Source: Hydrogenovibrio thermophilus
Lineage (GTDB): Bacteria; Pseudomonadota; Gammaproteobacteria; Thiomicrospirales; Thiomicrospiraceae
Reading direction: 5' to 3'
DNA length: 64,000 bases
Assembly (NCBI RefSeq): GCF_004028275.1
Contig: NZ_CP035033.1
Coordinates: forward strand, 2,476,501 to 2,540,500
The notes below the pieces were generated by a model, which was not told the DNA's origin, did not search any database, and was given only the letters and a program-made list of their open reading frames with translations. Below are positions 46,920-58,204 of this stretch, piece by piece (position 1 is the stretch's first letter; each line of letters begins with the position of its first letter). The position numbers and the translations under genes were made by a program.

Positions 46920-48917
46920 ATGCAAGAACTTAAGCAATACACTCAGTATCTGCCGGAAGTAAAGCGCTATCTGGGCGAACTGGAACACCAGGATCTCTGG
47001 TGGACGACCGTGGCCATGGTCGGAAAAATAAACAATGAAAACATCGACCCGCAGCTGCTGGAATCGATTGTCGACACCCAAAAAGAATTCCAAAGCCTGC
47101 GCAACATGATGATTGAGGCCCTGGTCAGCCGTTACCTGAACCAAGCCAACAGCGAAATCGTACTGAAATCCCAGGCCACGATCGACATCTTGATTCGAAA
47201 TCTGTTCGAACGAACCGCTGACGTAGGCTTTCTCGCCACCGACGACGATCTGGTCGACTTCCTCGCCAACCCGGAAACCACTGAAAACGACGCCGATTTT
47301 ATCCACCGCCGGATTGAAGAGTACGTTGCTAAATACAGCGTCTACGACGACATTCTCTTACTGGACACCCGCGGTCAAGTTCGCGCCAAGCTCAATCCAA
47401 ACAACCCGGTCACCATGAGTCGCGATCCGATTATCCAGGAAGCCTTGACCACCAACGAACCCTATACCGAGGTGTATCGTCATTCGGATTTATTTCCAAA
47501 CAAACCGAAAAGTTTGATTTACGCCAAACGCATCGAAGCGACGGTGAGCGGGGAAAGCCAAACCGTCGGTGTCCTGTGCTTGAGCTTTGAGTTCGACGAA
47601 GAAATGGAATCCATCTTCCCCAAACTGAGCAGTGCGGAAGAAGGCTATGAAATCATGATTCTGGACGACCAGGGCAGTGTCATCGCCACCAACAACCCGG
47701 TCATTCATCCGCTGGACAAAAAATTTCCGGTCCCGGAACAGATGCGCACTCCCAAAGGCGATGACAAAGGCTTGAATTACATCACTCAAACCCACGGCTA
47801 CCAAGGCTTCAAGGGACTACCATGGTTCTGCTACACTCACGCGGCGCATTCCGTCGCCTTTGCCAGCAGCAAAACCACCGAAGACCTGGGCGTGACCATC
47901 AATGAAGAATCGCCGATTTACCTCCGAGATCTCGATGAGACCAACTTGAAAGTCAGCACCTTGCTACTGATCGTGATTCTCAACGGCAAAATCACCTCGC
48001 TGAAAAAAGACGTGAAATCCTTTTTGCCGGTACTCGACAGTTTCCAGGACATCAGCCGTGACATCCAAGCCATTTTCAGCGACTTCATTCACCATATTCA
48101 CACCGTTTTGGTGGAAACCATTCAGAACAAGGTCAAATTCAGCGCCACCCTGGCCATCGAAATCATGGACCGAAACCTGTATGAGCGGGCCAACGACTGC
48201 CGCTGGTGGGCACTGAACAGCACCTTCCGAAAGGTTTTGACGGATCACCAAGACCAGACTCCGATCGAGGAAGAAGAAACCGAGACGTTGACCGACATCC
48301 TCCAGTACATCAACCAGCTTTACACCGTCTACACCAACATTATGCTGTATGACCGCAAAGGCAAGATTCTCGCCGTTTCCAATCCGGCGGAAGCCCATCT
48401 TATCGGCACGATTTTACCTCAGCCGCAAGACACTTCCGCCTGCCTGGGCATTCAGGACACCCAAGCCTATGTAGTCTCCGACTTCCATAAAACCGAACTC
48501 TACAATGGCCGTTACACCTACATTTACCACGCCGCCGTCAAACACTGGCACAGCGAGCATAAAAACGTCGGCGGCATCGCACTGGTGTTCGACAGTGAGC
48601 CGGAATTCCTCGCCATGCTGGAAGACACCAAGCCGAAATACATCAACAAGACCGTCGACGAATCGACCTTCTGTCTGTTCACCACCCCGGACGGCGAAAT
48701 CATTGCCAGCACCACGGACACTTACCCGGTCGGCACGCAAATCACCCTGCCAGACAAGGTCAAACACAGTGCCAACGGCGATTCCGGTTCTTTGCGCTGG
48801 GACATTGGCGAGTGCAAATACATTATGGGATACAAGATGTCGGAAGGTTACCGGGAATACAAGAACGGTGACGGTTACACCAACAACGTATTGTCACTGG
48901 TCTTTACCGGCATTTAA
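46920..48917 (+). CDS. Soluble tandem-Cache domain protein, no output domain
   Basis: 665 residues without signal peptide or transmembrane helix. It consists of two copies of one unit: a helical stretch ending ILIRNLFERTADVGFLATDDD in the first and EIMDRNLYERANDCRWWALNS in the second. Each is followed by a Cache/PAS-like sensor with a phosphate-loop-type turn (YDDILLLDTRGQVRAKLNPN; YTNIMLYDRKGKILAVSNPA). Relatives in other bacteria can carry a CheW or MCP signalling domain, which is absent here. It might feed a ligand signal to a chemotaxis array or cyclase partner. Function unknown; the ribosome site is weak (GGAACG). Confidence 0.75.
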   Translation: MQELKQYTQYLPEVKRYLGELEHQDLWWTTVAMVGKINNENIDPQLLESIVDTQKEFQSLRNMMIEALVSRYLNQANSEIVLKSQATIDILIRNLFERTADVGFLATDDDLVDFLANPETTENDADFIHRRIEEYVAKYSVYDDILLLDTRGQVRAKLNPNNPVTMSRDPIIQEALTTNEPYTEVYRHSDLFPNKPKSLIYAKRIEATVSGESQTVGVLCLSFEFDEEMESIFPKLSSAEEGYEIMILDDQGSVIATNNPVIHPLDKKFPVPEQMRTPKGDDKGLNYITQTHGYQGFKGLPWFCYTHAAHSVAFASSKTTEDLGVTINEESPIYLRDLDETNLKVSTLLLIVILNGKITSLKKDVKSFLPVLDSFQDISRDIQAIFSDFIHHIHTVLVETIQNKVKFSATLAIEIMDRNLYERANDCRWWALNSTFRKVLTDHQDQTPIEEEETETLTDILQYINQLYTVYTNIMLYDRKGKILAVSNPAEAHLIGTILPQPQDTSACLGIQDTQAYVVSDFHKTELYNGRYTYIYHAAVKHWHSEHKNVGGIALVFDSEPEFLAMLEDTKPKYINKTVDESTFCLFTTPDGEIIASTTDTYPVGTQITLPDKVKHSANGDSGSLRWDIGECKYIMGYKMSEGYREYKNGDGYTNNVLSLVFTGI

Positions 48918-49003: not shown

Positions 49004-49873
49004 TCAGGCGCGGACCAAACGGCCTTGACGACGTGTTTTCAAAACTTGCAAAACCAACACCGTCGTCATCAACAACAGTCCGGCCATCACCGCAATCGAC
49101 GCCGCAATCGAACTGTCCAACCAGACGGCCACCGCATAGCCTGCCAGCACGGAAAGCTGTGCATAGCCGGCCGCCAGCCACAGCATGCCTTTTAAGGACT
49201 TGGCCAACAAATAAGCCGCACTGGCCGGAATCACCAACAAGGCCACCACCAGAATCGCCCCCACCGCGTCGAAAGACGCCACTGTCGTCAACGACACCAT
49301 CGTCATCAACAGATAATGCCAGAACACCACATTCACACCTAGGGATACCGCCAGCGCCGGATGGAACGCCACCAGCTTAAAACGTTCAAAACCAATCAAC
49401 ACCATCAACAGATTCAACAGGAACACCCCCAGAATCAACCAAAAAGCGCGCGGCCCAATATCGGACTCTCCCCAAACAACCGTATCAAACGGTACAAAAG
49501 CGATTTCGCCGTAAAGCACACATTCTTGATCCAAATCCACCTGACCGGCGTACACCGAAATCAAAATCACCCCGACGGCAAAAAACCAAGTGAAGATAAT
49601 GCCGATGCTGGCATCGGTCTGTAACTTACTGACCCGATGCAAGGTGTTGGACAGCCAAGCCGTCAACAATCCGATGACCGTCGCACCAATCATCATCGCC
49701 ACCACCGAGCGGCTGCCAACGGCCAAATACGCCAATACGATACCCAGCAAGACCGAATGACTGATGGCATCCCCCAACAAACTCATGCGGCGCAATACCA
49801 GAAAAACGCCCACCATCGAACAACTGACCGCCACCAGACTCGCCGTGGCCAGAATCCAAATATCCCCCATCAT
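49004..49873 (-). CDS. Metal ABC transporter permease (ABC-3 family)
   Basis: 289 residues with about eight transmembrane helices. The ABC-3 signature FLVLRRMSLLGDAISHSVLLGIVLAYL is near the start, and TVASFDAVGAILVVALLVIPASAAYLL is the second conserved block. It forms the channel of a Mn/Fe/Zn importer with the fused permease encoded just upstream, which it overlaps by 4 bp. Which metal is carried cannot be decided by eye, although a DtxR-like operator points to Mn or Fe rather than Zn. Confidence 0.9.
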   Translation of the reverse strand: MMGDIWILATASLVAVSCSMVGVFLVLRRMSLLGDAISHSVLLGIVLAYLAVGSRSVVAMMIGATVIGLLTAWLSNTLHRVSKLQTDASIGIIFTWFFAVGVILISVYAGQVDLDQECVLYGEIAFVPFDTVVWGESDIGPRAFWLILGVFLLNLLMVLIGFERFKLVAFHPALAVSLGVNVVFWHYLLMTMVSLTTVASFDAVGAILVVALLVIPASAAYLLAKSLKGMLWLAAGYAQLSVLAGYAVAVWLDSSIAASIAVMAGLLLMTTVLVLQVLKTRRQGRLVRA

Positions 49874-51276
49874 GATTCAGCCCCTTTCTGCTCCGACGCA
49901 ACCTGCACCGCCGGGATCCGTCGTCCATGCGGGTCTTTCAATGAACCTTTCTGATCGCTTTGTAACTCCCGCTCCAAAGCCCGCGTCTCCTCGTCCGTCA
50001 ATAAATGTTCGATCTGCTCGGCCTGAGAATGCACCCGATCCGGCGTCAAGTCCAACTGCTCAGTCAAATAGTTTTCCCACAGGCGATGACGACGTGTCAA
50101 CGCCACGGCCCGTTCCACACCCTCCGGTGAAAGGGCCACGGCCCGCACCGTATCCGTCGCGGTCAACCACCCCAGTTTTTTCATTCTCGCCAGGGTCTCT
50201 TTCAATTCCGCCAACGGCATGGTGCGCAACGCCAAAATATCTTCTTCAGCAAACGGTAAGTCCAGCGCCAAAGCGTTTTGGGCATGATGGCTATTGGCGG
50301 GATGACGCTCATTCAATACATACAAGGTACGCAGCACATTTTCGTCACACACCTGGCGGCGCAGCCGACGCTGCTTCAACACACTGGAAATCAGACCGCG
50401 TTGCGGGGCGAACAGAAATGACACCGCAAACACCAACGACAAGACCACCACCATCCAAGGCCCGGTCGGCATCGCCGGAGCCATATAGGAAATATTGGCA
50501 CTGAACAGCCCGCTGAGTCCGCCGATAAACCCGGCGGTCAGCAACATCACCGACAGACTGTGCCCCCAAAAACGGGCCGCCGCCACCGGCGTCAGCAAGA
50601 CCGCCGCCATCAACACCACTCCGACAATCTGCAAACCGATGACCACCGACATCACAATCAGCAACGCCAACACCAGCTCGTAAAACGCGATGTTCAACCC
50701 CAACGATTGGGCATAGGTTCGGTTAAAGGCAATCAAACGGAATTTTTGGAAGAAAACCGCCACGGTCAGCAACACCACCAACGCCACCGCCGACAACAGA
50801 TAAATATCACTCGGCAGCATTGCCGCCGCCTGCCCAAACAGAATTTTGTCCAGGCCTGACTTGCCCGCCACTTCCATGCCTTGAATGTATGACAACTCCA
50901 TCAAGCCCAGTGCGAAGAAAAACGACAAGGTAATCGCCATGGCCGCATCCGGTTTGATTTTAGTGTGCTTGGGAATCCAATCCATCAGAAATAAACCGAG
51001 AAAACTGCTGATCAGAGCACCGAAAAACATCAACAACGGTGTATGGGCATGAAACAGAATAAAGGCCGTCATCACGCCGGGCAAAGCGGCATGTGCCAAG
51101 GCATCGCCCATCAAGGAGCGCTTGCGTAAAAAGGCAAATCCGCCAATCACCGACGCACTGATGCCCAGCAAAATCGAGCCAACCATTACCCAAACGGCGT
51201 TGGCGTCTTCGAACCGCCAGAACTCCAGAAACAGCGCCCAGTAATCCGGCGAATAAGCGACAAAATCACTCGTCAT
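49870..51276 (-). CDS. Metal ABC permease fused to a DtxR-like metalloregulator domain
   Basis: 468 residues. The first 290 or so are an ABC-3 permease (FAFLRKRSLMGDALAHAALPGVMTAFIL; GVVLMAAVLLTPVAAARFW). After the last membrane helix the chain continues with a winged-helix segment (AELKETLARMKKLGWLTATDTVRAVALSPEGVERA). A DtxR/MntR dimerisation segment follows (RRHRLWENYLTEQLDLTPDRVHSQAEQIEHLLTDEETRALE, ending DPHGRRIP). The His and Glu positions of the metal sites appear kept. The domain is on the cytoplasmic side and may sense metal to gate transport or even contact DNA. It overlaps the ATPase gene by 11 bp. Confidence 0.88.
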   Translation of the reverse strand: MTSDFVAYSPDYWALFLEFWRFEDANAVWVMVGSILLGISASVIGGFAFLRKRSLMGDALAHAALPGVMTAFILFHAHTPLLMFFGALISSFLGLFLMDWIPKHTKIKPDAAMAITLSFFFALGLMELSYIQGMEVAGKSGLDKILFGQAAAMLPSDIYLLSAVALVVLLTVAVFFQKFRLIAFNRTYAQSLGLNIAFYELVLALLIVMSVVIGLQIVGVVLMAAVLLTPVAAARFWGHSLSVMLLTAGFIGGLSGLFSANISYMAPAMPTGPWMVVVLSLVFAVSFLFAPQRGLISSVLKQRRLRRQVCDENVLRTLYVLNERHPANSHHAQNALALDLPFAEEDILALRTMPLAELKETLARMKKLGWLTATDTVRAVALSPEGVERAVALTRRHRLWENYLTEQLDLTPDRVHSQAEQIEHLLTDEETRALERELQSDQKGSLKDPHGRRIPAVQVASEQKGAES

Positions 51277-52066
51277 CGTGCACCTTATCCAGATTGGAAC
51301 GATAAAGCTTTTCGGTCATTTCGCTCAACAGCGACAGGCGGCCACCGTAGGTTTTATTGAGGTTTTCCGGCGTCATCACGTCTTGCACCGGGCCGGCCGC
51401 CACCAAACGTGCATTCACCAGCAACACCCAATCGAAATAATCACCCACGGTATTCAAGTCGTGATGCACGCAAACAATGGTTTTGTTCTGGGATTTCAGT
51501 TCGTGGAACAATTCAATAATCGCTTTTTCGGTGGTGACATCCACCCCGGCAAAAGGTTCGTCCATCAGGTACAGGCTGGCTTTTTGCGCCAAGGCGCGCG
51601 CCAGAAACACCCGCTGCTGCTGACCGCCGGACAATTGACTGATTTGACGATCTTTGAAATCCAACATGCTGACCCGCGCCAACGCCTGCTCGGCAATCAT
51701 CACGTCGTCGCGCGATGGACGCTGCCAGAACTTCAAGTGGCCGTGCCGCCCCATCAACACCACATCCATGACATTAATCGGAAAATCCCAATCCGACTCC
51801 TCGCGCTGCGGCACATAGGCCACCGACAACTGCTTCTGCTTCAACGGCTGCCCGAAAAAACGCACTTGTCCGCTCATCAAGGGCTCCAAGCCCATAATGC
51901 CTTTCAGCAAAGTGGACTTGCCCGCTCCGTTCGGCCCGACGATGGCGATGTTCTGGCCTTCCGGAATGGCGAAGCTGACATCCGTCAACACCGGTTTATA
52001 CTGATAACGCATGCTGAGCTGGTTGACGATCAGCGGCGGATTTTCAATGGTTTTCCAAGCGTCCAT
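51266..52066 (-). CDS. Metal ABC transporter ATPase
   Basis: 266 residues. Walker A is NIAIVGPNGAGKSTLL, the signature is QLSGGQQQRVFLARALAQK, Walker B is LYLMDEPFAGVD, and the switch His is in TIVCVHHDLNTVGDYFD. It powers the importer formed by the two permeases. The VPQREESDWDFPINVMDVVLMGR Q-loop is typical of the Mn/Zn/Fe subgroup. It is separated from the binding-protein gene by 1 bp. Confidence 0.94.
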   Translation of the reverse strand: MDAWKTIENPPLIVNQLSMRYQYKPVLTDVSFAIPEGQNIAIVGPNGAGKSTLLKGIMGLEPLMSGQVRFFGQPLKQKQLSVAYVPQREESDWDFPINVMDVVLMGRHGHLKFWQRPSRDDVMIAEQALARVSMLDFKDRQISQLSGGQQQRVFLARALAQKASLYLMDEPFAGVDVTTEKAIIELFHELKSQNKTIVCVHHDLNTVGDYFDWVLLVNARLVAAGPVQDVMTPENLNKTYGGRLSLLSEMTEKLYRSNLDKVHDDE

Positions 52067-52067
52067 A

Positions 52068-52961
52068 TTATTTCAAGGCCCCAACAATGGTATTCACATT
52101 ATGTTTCACCATACCGATATAGGTGCCCTCCGGCGTACCGGACAAGCCCATGGCGTCGGAATAGAGTTCGCCGCCAATGGCGAGATGGCCATCGGCTTCA
52201 TTCACACCCGCCACCAACGATTTCAGGAATTTTTTCGGCACACTCGATTCCACAAACACCGCTTTGATATGACGCTCCAGAATCAAATCCTTCAAACGTT
52301 TGATGTCATGCAACCCAAACTCCGTGGCGGTACTGATACCCTGCAGCCCTCGCACTTCCATGCCGTAGGCGCGCCCGAAATACCCGAAAGCATCGTGCGC
52401 GGTAATCAAAACCCGCTGTCCGGCCGGAATCGTCTGCACCTGGTCTTTCACCCAAGCATTCAAATCCGCCAACTGTTGCAAATACACCTTGGCATTCTGG
52501 CGATAAAAATCCTGATTGGCCGGATCGTGCTGGATTAATTTTTCCAACACCAAACGACCGGCCTGCTCCCACAGACTGACATCAAACCAAACGTGCGGAT
52601 CCGGTGCCTGTCCGAAGTGCAAAATCGCGTCCTTTGGAAATTCCGATGTCACCGCATAAACCGGCTTTTTCCGCGCCAGTTTTTCAAAGACTTCCTGCAT
52701 TTTGCCTTCCAGGTGTAAGCCATTGAAAAAAATCACATCGGCTCGTTGCAGTCGCCGCAAATCACCATGGGTGGCTTTATACAAGTGCGGATCAACCCCC
52801 GCACCCATTAAGGCGGTCATCGTCACTTTATCCTGCCCAATATTGGTCACCAAGTCACCGATCATGCCGGTGGTCACCACCACATTCAAAGGCTTGGCCT
52901 GCACCTGAAGCGCCATAAAACCGATGCACACCAAGATCAATTTGCTCAAATACGTCTTCAC
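52068..52961 (-). CDS. Metal ABC transporter periplasmic binding protein (TroA family)
   Basis: 297 residues with a signal peptide (1-22). Expected metal ligands of cluster A-I proteins are visible: His in GAGVDPHLYKATHGD, His in FGQAPDPHVWFDVSLW, Glu/His in TAHDAFGYFGRAYGMEVRG, and the late Asp in LYSDAMG. No His-rich loop is present, which favours Mn or Fe over Zn. It is the first gene of the four-gene operon, and the TTAGCCTAGGCTAA palindrome lies 26 bp upstream of its start. Confidence 0.92.
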   Translation of the reverse strand: MKTYLSKLILVCIGFMALQVQAKPLNVVVTTGMIGDLVTNIGQDKVTMTALMGAGVDPHLYKATHGDLRRLQRADVIFFNGLHLEGKMQEVFEKLARKKPVYAVTSEFPKDAILHFGQAPDPHVWFDVSLWEQAGRLVLEKLIQHDPANQDFYRQNAKVYLQQLADLNAWVKDQVQTIPAGQRVLITAHDAFGYFGRAYGMEVRGLQGISTATEFGLHDIKRLKDLILERHIKAVFVESSVPKKFLKSLVAGVNEADGHLAIGGELYSDAMGLSGTPEGTYIGMVKHNVNTIVGALK

Positions 52962-53658: not shown

Positions 53659-53833
53659 GGCACTTTCGCACTCAAAAAAAACAATACCACACCAAAAAAG
53701 CGCACTCCGACATCACATTTTTCAACCGGAAACCCGTTTTGTTTCAAACACTTTTATTTTATAAGCACATTTTAATAAAGGTATAAAATTTGCTTGTCAA
53801 AGATATTTACCCTGAGCGTAGGTATCGATAACG

Positions 53834-55669
53834 ATGAGTGAACAACCGATTGATATTCTATGGGTTCTCATCAGCGCCGTTCTCGTCGCCATGATGCAAC
53901 CTGGCTTTACCGCCCTTGAAGCTGGCGCCACCCGAACCAAAAACTCGATTTCGACCGCCATCAAAAATGTCAGTGACTTCCTGATCGCCTTTATGATTTT
54001 CGTCGTCATCGGTGCCAGCATTATGCTCGGCAGCAGCCAAAACGGCTGGATCGGCTGGGACAAGCTGTTCTTTTACGAAGACTCTTTATCCGGCCTAGTG
54101 CTGACTTTGTTCCACGCCATGTTCGCCTCCACGGCCGTCACCATCATTTCCGGTTCCATTGCCGAACGCACCAAATACACCTCTTACCTGATCATCGCCA
54201 TCATCGTCTCCTTGTTCATTTACCCGGTTCAAGCACACTGGATTTGGAACAGCGACGGCTGGCTCGCTCAGATGGGGTTCATCGATTTCGCCGGTTCCAC
54301 CGTGGTGCACTCGGTCGGCGGTTGGGCGGCTCTGGCCGCCATTTTGATTATCGGCCCGCGATTAGGCCGCTTTGAAAACAACGAACGGCCGTTTGAACAG
54401 GCCAACCTCGCTTACAGTGCCCTCGGCGTCTTTTTAATCTGGCTGGGGTGGATCGGCTTCAACGGCGGCAGTGTGCTGGCCTTGAATATCGAAACCGGGA
54501 AAGTGGTGCTGAACACCTTGATTGCGGGTGCGGTCGGCGGCATTGCCGGGCTCATCGTCAGCCGCCTGATGACCGGTTACTATCAGGTCATCGACATCAT
54601 CAACGGCATTCTGGCCGGACTGGTGGCCATCACCGCCTGCGCTCATCTGGCCTCGCCATTCAGCGCCATGGTGGTCGGTGCCATCGGTTATCTGGCGTAT
54701 TTAGTCGGCAAGATTCTACTCATCCGCTGGCGGATTGACGACGCCATCGAGGCCGTTCCGGTCCATTTATTTGCCGGCATCGCAGGCACCCTAGCCGTGG
54801 CGTTTCTGGTGGAGGAAGCGCTGTTCTGGCAGCAGTTCAAAACCCAAACCATCGGTATCTTTTTCGTAGGCCTCCTGACCTTCACGGTCACCTACATCAT
54901 GCTGAAAATCATCAACCACTTTTACGCCTTGCGCGTCTCCGAAGCCAAAGAAATTCTCGGCTTAAACATCAGCGAGCACCAGGCTTCCACGTCCATGTTC
55001 GACTTGGCGCGTGCCATGAACGCCCAGGCCCAAGACCAGGATTTCAGCAAAAAAATCATGGTGGAACCTTATTCCGACGCCTCCCTGATTGCCACCTATT
55101 ACAACCACGTGACCCAAGCCTTCAATCAATTGAACGACGAAAAAGAAGCACTGATCGAAGAGTCCTATCACATGGCCAACTATGACCAGTTGACCGGGTT
55201 GGCGAAACGCCGCCTGTTGGTGAACGAACTGTCACGCTCCATTCTACGGCTGGATCGCCAGGACCAGACCAATGCGATTCTGTTCATCGATCTGGACGGT
55301 TTCAAAGCCATCAATGACCAGTACGGTCATAATGCCGGCGATATCCTGCTGAAGGAAGCCGCCAACCGCATCCAAACCATTATCCGCAAAACCGATTTGG
55401 CCGCGCGTTTCGGTGGTGACGAATTTGTGATTCTGCTGGAAAACATTCAGAATGAAAGCTTCGCCGCCCAAGTTGCGGACAAGATCATCCACTCCATCAA
55501 ACAGCCGATTCAACTGCCAAACGACGTCACCGGATGCGTGAATGCCTCCATTGGCCTCAAGGTCTTTGACGGCGGTTCGAAAAAGAACGTCGACGACATT
55601 TTGAACATGGCCGACAAAGCCATGTACGAAGCGAAACGCCGCGGCAAAGGACAGTGGGTGATTGCTTAA
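53834..55669 (+). CDS. Ammonium transporter-like sensor fused to diguanylate cyclase
   Basis: 611 residues. Residues 1 to about 370 are an Amt/Rh channel with the twin-histidine pair kept (H159 in TVVHSVGG, H311 in VPVHLFAG) and the Phe-gate block FASTAVTIISGSIAERTKY. A linker of about 80 residues with coiled-coil character (about 370-450) joins an intact GGDEF domain: YDQLTGLAKRR, LFIDLDGFKAINDQYGHN, and GGDEF at 527-531. An RKTD inhibitory site lies five residues upstream of GGDEF. It would couple ammonium binding or flux to c-di-GMP synthesis. No glnK is adjacent, unlike ordinary amtB loci. Confidence 0.93.
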   Translation: MSEQPIDILWVLISAVLVAMMQPGFTALEAGATRTKNSISTAIKNVSDFLIAFMIFVVIGASIMLGSSQNGWIGWDKLFFYEDSLSGLVLTLFHAMFASTAVTIISGSIAERTKYTSYLIIAIIVSLFIYPVQAHWIWNSDGWLAQMGFIDFAGSTVVHSVGGWAALAAILIIGPRLGRFENNERPFEQANLAYSALGVFLIWLGWIGFNGGSVLALNIETGKVVLNTLIAGAVGGIAGLIVSRLMTGYYQVIDIINGILAGLVAITACAHLASPFSAMVVGAIGYLAYLVGKILLIRWRIDDAIEAVPVHLFAGIAGTLAVAFLVEEALFWQQFKTQTIGIFFVGLLTFTVTYIMLKIINHFYALRVSEAKEILGLNISEHQASTSMFDLARAMNAQAQDQDFSKKIMVEPYSDASLIATYYNHVTQAFNQLNDEKEALIEESYHMANYDQLTGLAKRRLLVNELSRSILRLDRQDQTNAILFIDLDGFKAINDQYGHNAGDILLKEAANRIQTIIRKTDLAARFGGDEFVILLENIQNESFAAQVADKIIHSIKQPIQLPNDVTGCVNASIGLKVFDGGSKKNVDDILNMADKAMYEAKRRGKGQWVIA

Positions 55670-56307: not shown

Positions 56308-56392
56308 GGCTTTTCCTCCGTTTTTCATCATCATACGCGGTTGACCATGCCGGATTTTGAAAAAAATAAGGTTTACGCCCGATGGCACAAAC

Positions 56393-56408
56393 CCACCAGG
56401 CCTGGTGG
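56393..56408. repeat. 16-bp palindrome extending CCAGGCCTGG in a divergent promoter region
   Basis: CCACCAGGCCTGGTGG is perfectly self-complementary. It lies between two divergent genes, so a terminator role is unlikely for either of them. Confidence 0.7.
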
Positions 56409-56479
56409 TTTTCCGCCTTCCAGTGACGCCATCGAACCCACTGAAAAATAACGCTCAACAGGACTTGAAATTTATATGT

Positions 56480-56493
56480 TATGTTATAACATA
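56480..56493. promoter_or_regulatory. Zur box
   Basis: TATGTTATAACATA, inside the longer stretch ATATGTTATGTTATAACATA, matches the gammaproteobacterial Zur operator core (ATGTTATAxxATAACAT-like). It lies 32 bp before the COG0523 gene and next to a zur gene in the same operon. Confidence 0.8.
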
Positions 56494-56524
56494 TCATTAT
56501 TCATCCATTCGTGAGGACTCCGCC

Positions 56525-57727
56525 ATGAAACAACTTCCCGTCACCGTGCTGTCCGGTTTTCTGGGCGCCGGTAAAACCACCCTGCTCAATCACATTCTGA
56601 ACAACCGCCAGAATTTACGCGTCGCCGTCATCGTCAACGACATGAGCGAAATCAACATCGACGCCAGTTTGGTGGAAGGTGAAGTCAGCTTGAATCGTTC
56701 CGAAGAAAAAATGGTGGAAATGTCCAACGGCTGCATTTGCTGCACCTTACGTGAAGATTTACTTCTGGAAGTGTCCGCTCTGGCGAAGGCCGATAAATTC
56801 GATTATCTGGTCATCGAATCCACCGGCATCTCCGAACCGCTGCCGGTCGCTGAAACTTTCACCTTCGAAGACGAAAACGGCCTCTCCCTGTCGGACGTCG
56901 CACGGCTCGACACCATGGTCACGGTGGTGGACGGCGGCAATTTCCTCACCGATTTCCGTCAAGCCAAATCGTTGCAGGAAGCCGGGGAAAGCCTCGGGGA
57001 CGAAGACGAACGCAGCGTTGCCGACCTCCTCATCGACCAAGTCGAATTCGCCGACGTGCTGCTCATCAGCAAAACCGATTTAATGACACACGACCAAATC
57101 GAAGAACTGCGCGCCATTCTGCATTCCCTGAATCCGCAAGCCGACATCCACACCTTGCAACACGGAAAGATTCCGCTCGAAACGGTACTCAACACCCAAA
57201 AATTCAATTTCGAAAAGGCCCAACAAGCGCCGGGCTGGTTGCAGGAAATGCGCGGCGAACACGTGCCGGAAACCGAAGAATACGGCATCGGCAGTTTCAC
57301 CTTCACCGCCCGCAAACCGTTTCACCCGGTCAAGTTCCACCGTTTTCTGACCCAGCCTTGGCCAACGGGCAAACTCATCCGCTCCAAAGGGTATTTCTGG
57401 CTCGCCAGCCAACCGCAAATGGCGGGTATTTGGAGCCAAGCCGGCGGTATCGCCCACCATCACTGGGCCGGGATGTTCTGGAAAGCCGTGCCGGAAGACC
57501 GCTGGCCGGACGATCAGGAATCCCGCGACTTCATTCGCTCCAAATGGGTGGAACCTTTCGGCGACATGCGCCAGGAATTGGTATTCATCGGACAAGGTTT
57601 GGATGAACACGCCACTCGAAAACAGTTAGAATCCTGTTTATTGACCGATGAAGAACTTTACGCCGGCGTGACTTATTGGACACAAATGGACGACCCTTTT
57701 GCCGAATCCGCCGCGCCGAATGCTTGA
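56525..57727 (+). CDS. COG0523 zinc metallochaperone GTPase (CobW C-terminal type)
   Basis: 401 residues. The P-loop [17 protein letters not shown] is at residues 9-25, and the metal-binding CxCC motif is at C70/C72/C73 ([15 protein letters not shown]). [14 protein letters not shown] is the Walker B/switch region and ISKTDLM the guanine-specificity NKxD-like site. The C-terminal CobW domain starts near [16 protein letters not shown]. Such GTPases deliver zinc to target proteins during zinc starvation. The Zur box upstream and zur directly downstream support this role. Starts upstream of 56525 would cross the operator. Confidence 0.93.
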
Positions 57728-57739
57728 TAGGAGATGGCC

Positions 57740-58204
57740 ATGACCGATATCGACGCACGCTTGAAACTCGCCCACGAAACCTGCCAAGCCAACGGCCAGC
57801 GCTTGACGGCGATTCGTGAAAAGGTGTTGCGCTTGCTGCTGGAAGCCGACAAACCCATGAGCGCTTACGAACTGCTGGAGCAGTACAAACTTGACGAACA
57901 AAGCGGCACCCAGCCGATGACCATTTACCGCGCCCTGAGCTTTTTGGAAGCGCAATCGCTGATTCACCGCCTGGCCTCGACGCGCCAATACGTGGCGTGC
58001 CACCATGCGCATGAAAAAGCCCCCCACAGCGAGCTCACCCAGTTTTTGATGTGCGACCACTGCGGCGGCATTGAAGAAACGCCTCTATCCGATGTGCTAT
58101 GGCAGGCGATTCAAGCCAATGCCGAACTCACCCACTTTCACATCGACCAACCCAGCCTAGAAATTCACGGCACCTGCCGCACCTGCCAGCAACACGGAGC
58201 CTGA
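57740..58204 (+). CDS. zur: Zinc uptake regulator Zur (Fur family)
   Basis: 154 residues. The winged helix includes GQRLTAIREKVLRLLLEADKPMSAYELLEQY and MTIYRALSFLEAQSLIHRL. The metal part has ACHHAHEKAPHSE and the two zinc-structural pairs CDHCGG and CRTCQ. As a Fur-family repressor it binds the TATGTTATAACATA site and shuts the operon when zinc is sufficient, giving autoregulation. The ATG at 57740 is used because GGAG lies six bases ahead, whereas the ATG at 57734 abuts the ribosome site. Confidence 0.92.
   Translation: MTDIDARLKLAHETCQANGQRLTAIREKVLRLLLEADKPMSAYELLEQYKLDEQSGTQPMTIYRALSFLEAQSLIHRLASTRQYVACHHAHEKAPHSELTQFLMCDHCGGIEETPLSDVLWQAIQANAELTHFHIDQPSLEIHGTCRTCQQHGA

Follow-up and report, generated by a model that had tools for sequence, protein, structure and literature searches.

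The protein P0001 of Hydrogenovibrio thermophilus is probably a transmembrane ammonium receptor that carries its own diguanylate cyclase, is made under nitrogen limitation and may have its cyclase turned ON by ammonium, as judged from its sequence, its relatives and its promoter region. P0001 has 611 amino acids and is encoded at positions 53834..55669 (+) of the 64,000-nucleotide stretch of DNA analysed here (the window), as an exact open reading frame with an ATG start; the opposite strand, read in that register, contains stops. This kind of Amt-GGDEF receptor is already known, since the close relative Sd-Amt1 has solved structures. New in our analysis is that P0001 carries five of the seven ammonium-site residues of Ks-Amt5, a set that the four stand-alone Amts of the same genome do not share. 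The segment between the two domains, described as a helical linker in the initial annotation, does join Amt to GGDEF, and we refine it here to a conserved module, HAMP-like by profile comparison, that is found in GGDEF, PAS-GGDEF-EAL, histidine-kinase and MCP fusions of Amt. In addition, a conserved sigma-54 promoter of the NtrC type is predicted before the P0001 orthologs. The added value lies in the HAMP-like module across Amt fusions and in this promoter.

The Amt domain and its predicted ammonium site

The Amt domain (residues 9-385; 53858..54988, +) was placed by Pfam match and residue alignment. The match to Ammonium_transp is nearly complete (profile positions 1-397 of 399, E 7e-106), and P0001 scores above the cut-offs of PF00909 (354.7 vs 23.2 bits) and TIGR00836 (364.9 vs 343.3 bits). 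Both pore histidines, to which the initial annotation had pointed, are indeed kept as H159 and H311, together with the Phe gate (F97 and F209), the filter residues W138 and S213, and D151. An AlphaFold2 monomer model (mean pLDDT 86, pTM 0.64) was compared with known structures in VIA-align. It superimposes on 8qj4, 'Receptor Sd-Amt1 (ON-state)', with Z 60.5 and an rmsd of 1.5 over 384 residues, on 6eu6, 'Sensor Amt Protein', with Z 60.5 and an rmsd of 1.4 over 382 residues, and on AmtB (2ns1) with Z 57.2 and an rmsd of 1.8 over 384 residues. With Z 60.5 for the sensors and 57.2 for AmtB the fold hardly separates a sensor from a transporter, and the residues must decide.

For the sensor Ks-Amt5, the passages available to us describe a buried two-ammonium site of Q24, E31, N47, D50, T51, T109 and T112, a pore plug of F27, Y30 and F34, and a protein that does not translocate ammonium efficiently (PMC5764959). 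In our alignment the site positions correspond to Q22, E29, N45, D48, F49, T103 and S106 of P0001. Five of the seven are identical (Q, E, N, D and T), both acidic residues (E and D) being kept; T112 is replaced by S106 and T51 by F49. All seven positions are the same in P0001 and Sd-Amt1 (QENDFTS), and the four stand-alone Amts of the host genome read AENLYSS, AENLFSS, HEIDLAS and HENAFSS there. The plug positions are F25, L28 and A32 in P0001. The pore alignment with Amt5-type sensors that had been suggested earlier thus agrees at five of the seven ammonium-site positions, and in the plug at F25 only, two of the three pore-blocking side chains being missing, and phenylalanine at this position is also present in ordinary stand-alone Amts. 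With the plug of Ks-Amt5 not kept, transport by P0001 beside sensing is possible.

A set of 130 distinct Amt rows, selected for their likeness to P0001, remained once 7 duplicates had been dropped. The residues QEND occur in 40 of the 41 readable signalling-type fusions (three more were unreadable), the exception being L033 with QENN; 18 of these 40 are Hydrogenovibrio-group orthologs, and among the other fusions the count is 22 of 23. QEND also occurs in 29/29 readable Amt-P-II-type fusions (one more was unreadable) and in 18 of the 56 stand-alone Amt rows of this set, which was chosen by likeness to P0001. Two of these 18 rows, L027 and L052, are fragments, L027 being one half of the split fusion of genome G041, and another two, L070 and L111, adjoin a P-II gene. 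L038-L047, L049, L050 and L055 are stand-alone gammaproteobacterial Amts with QEND, mostly 400-470 amino acids long, and no P-II gene was found within about 1.4 kb or less on either side of them; a short way upstream of L044, and on its strand, there is a separate GGDEF match. QEND thus marks a lineage to which the sensors belong, and it speaks for sensing. As proof of sensing QEND was dropped, because the Amt-P-II fusions and L070 and L111 carry it too. Within the genus, no pore or site residue varies among ten orthologs down to 62% identity.

The initial annotation had also taken the lack of an adjacent glnK as an argument for a sensor. The host genome is a single contig of 2.61 Mb, with the window at 2,476,501-2,540,500, and holds four stand-alone Amts besides P0001 and three P-II genes above cut-off. 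P-II genes adjoin only two of these four Amts and L004 and L005 lack one, so that the argument is weak, and the missing glnK was given up as proof of a sensor.

Comparison with known receptors

In a phmmer search of the PDB, the best match of P0001 is Sd-Amt1 of Shewanella denitrificans (8qj3, 8qj4 and 8qpf; residues 1-606, E 1.2e-119), and Ks-Amt5 (6eu6) ranks behind it. The Sd-Amt1 entries (2024) are titled 'Receptor Sd-Amt1' and cover an ON-state and an OFF-state. Sd-Amt1 shares with P0001 the order Amt-linker-GGDEF over residues 1-606, the seven site positions and the linker module. However, the identity over the Amt domain is 43%, Sd-Amt1 has GGEEF where P0001 has GGDEF, and positions 28 and 32 are F and N instead of L and A. 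In our tree Sd-Amt1 pairs with the Amt-histidine kinase L030 (support 83) and not with the Hydrogenovibrio-group clade. Ks-Amt5 of Kuenenia stuttgartiensis resembles P0001 in its Amt sensor lineage, in the canonical pore residues and in having no adjacent glnK. Besides the site and plug positions given above it differs in its output, a histidine kinase in place of GGDEF, and in its linker, since its authors describe it, in the passages at hand, as lacking HAMP (PMC5764959), whereas P0001 has a HAMP-like linker.

The statement that Amt-GGDEF forms are far less studied has to be corrected, given the structures of Sd-Amt1 and the Azoarcus protein AmtE, which, in the portion of the report available, is induced when nitrogen is short (PMC8467165). 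AmtE resembles P0001 in combining Amt with c-di-GMP domains and differs in having GGDEF plus EAL, the likeness being one of description. In the passages available from PMC2907700, PMC2330054, PMC12918730, PMC6501319, PMC5520373, PMC8534201, PMC7646526 and PMC12487129 there is no text on Amt-GGDEF proteins, and the word 'diguanylate' is absent from the reviews PMC10433425 and PMC10794816. Among cyclases, DgcN/YfiN (TpbB) is the nearest system that we compared with P0001. The NCBIfam DgcN/YfiN model matches residues 343-601 and so spans the linker, and the GGDEF domain of TpbB (4iob) is the top cyclase structure match (Z 26.1, tied with others). The sensor of DgcN/YfiN is, however, not an Amt, and P0001 scores far below the DgcN cut-off (171.7 vs 325 bits).

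The diguanylate cyclase domain

The GGDEF domain covers residues 448-606 (55175..55651, +) and matches the Pfam profile over positions 1-160 of 161 (E 8.3e-45). That its active site is complete, as first annotated, is borne out by the GGDEF motif at residues 527-531 and by D486, N494 and D503, the roles of which we take to be those known from PleD-type cyclases. These residues and the motif are invariant in 10/10 aligned genus members. The RxxD product-inhibition site noted before is present as R518-K-T-D521 (55385..55396, +), five residues before GGDEF, but it is not constant across the family, as the arginine is replaced in 2/10 aligned genus members (L014 and L015). Feedback by the product may therefore vary between members of the genus. 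The host genome has 46 GGDEF and 23 EAL matches, and c-di-GMP is thus probably in use by the host.

A HAMP-like linker module

In the linker alignment, residues 374-450 of P0001 form a module common to Amt fusions with different outputs; linker comparison and the predicted model place its HAMP-like part at residues 376-443 (54959..55162, +). The pattern consists of GLNxSEH, a helix with L..M, D-[FL]-S..[IV].VEP and then [ST][ED]..xIA..YN.v. The module-bearing fusions, checked by Pfam, comprise 8 with MCP, 7 with PAS-GGDEF-EAL, 1 with GGDEF-EAL, 2 with GGDEF besides P0001, 2 with histidine kinase and 1 with GAF. The kinase fusion L032 fell outside the pattern, but scored 55 bits in a later profile comparison. 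Three of the scanned Amts (L125, L117 and L044) have no output domain and three more are P-II fusions; the module is absent from both P-II fusions compared (L136 and L088).

Pfam detects no HAMP in P0001 at E<=0.001 (PF00672). A HAMP model was therefore built on 24 matches to HAMP in the host genome, three of them below the Pfam cut-off, and 114 controls were used (42 reversed, 42 shuffled and 30 P-II-fusion linkers). Against this model 38 of the 42 distinct linkers outscore all controls (best E 7e-9), the remaining ones being L015, L125, L024 and L061. The linker of P0001 scores 7.3 bits (E 0.047), too weak for a direct assignment to HAMP from P0001 alone. In hhalign the own-group linkers reach the distant linkers at 99.3% and the distant linkers reach HAMP at 96.5%, whereas the own-group linkers directly to HAMP give 18.6% only. 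When an all-linker model was run against 1,398 ORFs, the best matches listed after the Amt fusions were HAMP segments, including that of a Pfam-confirmed chemoreceptor in locus L062; the own-group linker model found no HAMP below E 0.1 in these ORFs. The linker of Sd-Amt1 is a member of this module too (37.5 bits vs 4.6 for the best of 200 shuffles); run directly against the HAMP model it is not among the best 4 matches listed, which are all shuffles.

The monomer model of P0001 has the anatomy of a HAMP domain in this region, with two predicted helices (387-401 and 415-449) and a connector of 13 residues (402-414), at a block pLDDT of 60-76 across the linker, and the second helix continues into the cyclase. 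Given the negative Pfam result and the two-step profile link, we term the module HAMP-like and not a HAMP member; the linker would be distantly HAMP-like by a transitive argument. We met no earlier recognition of such a module in Amt fusions in our literature search or in the Pfam and NCBIfam scans.

Predicted nitrogen control of the promoter

Two bases GG and GC that stand ten bases apart are the hallmark of sigma-54 promoters. A sigma-54-like -24/-12 element, GGTATAAAATTTGCTT, lies 54 nt before the ATG of the P0001 gene (53780..53795, +). GG-N10-GCTT is found upstream of 18/18 orthologs tested, 50-89 nt before the start, with a mean of 0.17 and a maximum of 3 of 18 in Markov controls; the set includes the near-duplicates L007 (99% to P0001) and L010 (98% to L009). 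As the rows were aligned on GG-N10-GCTT, the alignment itself accounts for part of the conservation by column near the element, and only columns outside the pattern are informative, such as T at +10 in 15/16 and T at +11 in 16/16.

The NtrC dyad was searched 140-60 nt upstream of the GG. Before the P0001 gene there are an upstream NtrC-like site, CGCACTCAAAAAAAACA (53667..53683, +; offset -113 from the GG), with 4 mismatches to TGCACYNNNNNRGTGCA, and a second one, CACACCAAAAAAGCGCA (53688..53704, +; offset -92), with 3 mismatches. At best the gene departs from the usual sigma-54 promoter consensus at 2 positions and from the usual NtrC consensus at 3. Dyads with <=3 mismatches are present in 11 of the 18 orthologs (Markov control mean 1.1, max 5), a count reached by 0/240 permuted dyads, and two stretches further upstream have such dyads in 2 and 0 orthologs. 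At 2 mismatches the count is 3/18, equalled by 1/240 permuted dyads, and at 4 mismatches 15/18, reached by 0/240; L012, L013 and L019 are without an NtrC-like site even at <=4 mismatches. Averaged over the 18 orthologs, the match is highest at offsets -92, -112 and -102 (5.7, 4.9 and 4.7 of 12, on a background with mean 3.4 and sd 0.43), that is, ten bases apart, as for sites on one helix face.

The host genome carries rpoN, and its NtrB and NtrC score above the NCBIfam equivalog cut-offs. One of the two glnK-amtB pairs has a similar but weaker promoter layout, seen at 3 mismatches; at <=2 mismatches the P-II plus Amt loci show no sigma-54 site, and the other glnK-amtB promoter (L139) has none at 3. 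Genome-wide, the sigma-54 pattern is not enriched (26 matches vs 33 in the reversed-pattern control) and the NtrC dyad barely so (10 vs 6 palindromic sites). Among other Amt fusions, 6 of the 23 scanned, one of which (L034) has 25 nt of upstream sequence only, carry a sigma-54-like element at <=2 mismatches (L067, L068, L031, L035, L037 and L048). Upstream of L037 and L068 there are both sigma-54-like and NtrC-like sites with 1-2 mismatches each. The proposed expression of P0001 under nitrogen limitation is in line with Azoarcus AmtE, an Amt with GGDEF/EAL that is 36-fold up under nitrogen deficiency according to the portion of the study at hand (PMC8467165).

Distribution and neighbourhood of the fusion

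P0001 has a match at E<=1e-100 in 10 of the 11 genomes searched in its genus, its own included, with 62-100% identity. These ten matches begin at query residue 1-6, end at 610-611 and are free of stops, which excludes chance. At E<=1e-70, a match is present in 21 of the 62 genomes of the family: 18 hold the whole Amt-GGDEF protein, G041 has it split into two pieces that lie on different contigs, and the other two (G054 and G055, loci L025 and L026) carry Amt-MCP fusions instead. Further Amt-MCP fusions besides these two same-family ones are L029, L036, L037 and L066-L068, and we predict that they are chemoreceptors for ammonium within this Amt lineage. A search of the class gave matches in 63 of 370 genomes at E<=1e-60. 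In at least 14 genomes besides the own one the match extends as far as query residue 430 or further, in one case with an internal stop. Judged from the matched range, the remaining matches look like stand-alone Amts; since no more than three candidates were scored in each genome, fusions are under-counted.

A quick Amt tree of 55 rows, made without bootstrap, brings the linker-bearing fusions and Ks-Amt5 together (SH-aLRT 88). The divergent own Amt L005 is drawn into this group on a long branch (end branch 5.97), and the placement of the long branches L005, L004 and Ks-Amt5 is unsure. All eight rows of the Hydrogenovibrio group fall into a single clade (support 100), nested in a set of 18 rows (97) to which PAS-GGDEF-EAL, histidine-kinase and GAF fusions and Sd-Amt1 also belong. 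Given the branches with strong support, the GGDEF label must have changed at least twice, so that outputs were probably exchanged.

The gene neighbourhood is not kept across loci. A Rid-family gene, presumably for an ammonia-releasing deaminase of the imine type, lies directly upstream of the P0001 gene (53209-53592, +); ridA holds this position in 5/17 other loci, and ridA or the zinc genes as a conserved partner were dropped. Apparent zinc functions flank the P0001 gene at 49004-52961 (-) and 56357-58204 (+). They include a znu-like ABC cluster, assigned by reading with one permease scanned by Pfam, which adjoins the fusion in 5/17 other loci, a ZigA zinc GTPase above cut-off and a Zur-like regulator below cut-off. 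At 49870-51276 (-) a metal ABC permease (ABC-3) is fused to a DtxR-type metal-binding domain (Fe_dep_repr_C). Further away, 46920-48917 (+) encodes a protein of 665 amino acids, in which Pfam finds two sensor regions of the Cache type (dCache_1 and Cache_WalK) and no output domain.

Proposed mechanism and alternatives

We propose that under nitrogen limitation NtrC and sigma-54 would switch the P0001 gene on through the conserved sites. Ammonium would then pass the outer filter and, by analogy with Ks-Amt5, bind the buried site of Q22, E29, N45, D48, T103 and S106. The resulting shift would be relayed via the HAMP-like linker, whose anatomy is predicted, and the continuous helix, and would change the pairing of GGDEF and hence c-di-GMP synthesis, which the intact active site leads us to expect. 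The sign of the response, ammonium turning the cyclase ON, is a guess; if it is right, a nitrogen-starved cell that meets ammonium would make c-di-GMP and settle. RxxD may cap the output; its residues are present in P0001 and the R is lost in two relatives. The direct link from ammonium to c-di-GMP that was first suggested is thus the best reading, in view of the receptor entries of Sd-Amt1 and the five of seven shared site residues, although F25, L28 and A32 leave room for transport. Amt proteins are trimers, whereas HAMP and GGDEF work as pairs, and we counted this against a receptor with its own cyclase.

An unlikely alternative that nevertheless deserves weight is that the Amt domain transports ammonium and reports at the same time, with flux or occupancy moving the linker and the cyclase reading uptake. 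The canonical transport residues that we checked are all kept in P0001, only F25 of the plug is shared with Ks-Amt5 and is common to ordinary Amts, and control of the NtrC type is what an uptake system would have. Yet uptake could be left to the other four Amts that the genome encodes, and P0001 keeps both buried acidic residues of Ks-Amt5, which the passages available describe as translocating inefficiently (PMC5764959). It is quite improbable that the fusion is constitutive or reads a cue other than ammonium, such as P-II at the cytoplasmic face or pH, with the Amt domain mainly an anchor. The three P-II genes of the genome would fit this, as would the control of c-di-GMP homeostasis by P-II in Azospirillum that is reported in the title of PMC7646526, but the invariance of pore and site residues in 10 orthologs down to 62% identity goes beyond the needs of an anchor, and the lineage swapped outputs while the site was retained. 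Hardly credible, finally, is an ordinary ammonium transporter with a vestigial cyclase domain: the Amt domain does score above the TIGR00836 cut-off, but D486, N494, D503 and GGDEF have stayed invariant in all ten aligned genus members, in a genome whose 46 GGDEF and 23 EAL matches suggest a messenger in use.

Implications

Beyond P0001 as an ammonium receptor with its own cyclase, we see an even chance that a single mobile cassette for ammonium sensing, made up of a sensor-lineage Amt and a hitherto unrecognised HAMP-like relay, has been placed on several outputs and that in the Hydrogenovibrio group the cyclase was wired to NtrC. If so, the outputs would be cyclases, phosphodiesterase hybrids, histidine kinases and chemoreceptors, and a trimeric channel fold would drive signalling domains that work in pairs via a HAMP-like adaptor. 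Ks-Amt5 was explained without HAMP, and a HAMP-like adaptor common to several output types of Amt fusions offers a testable answer to how a trimeric transporter fold may drive pair-working enzymes. The nitrogen logic would have two layers, the receptor being made when the cell is starved and switched when ammonium appears. The NtrC-type promoter predicts when a phenotype should show, and tests in ammonium-rich medium might miss it. In a free-living sulfur oxidiser, a single protein, P0001, would couple external nitrogen to the choice between settling and swimming.
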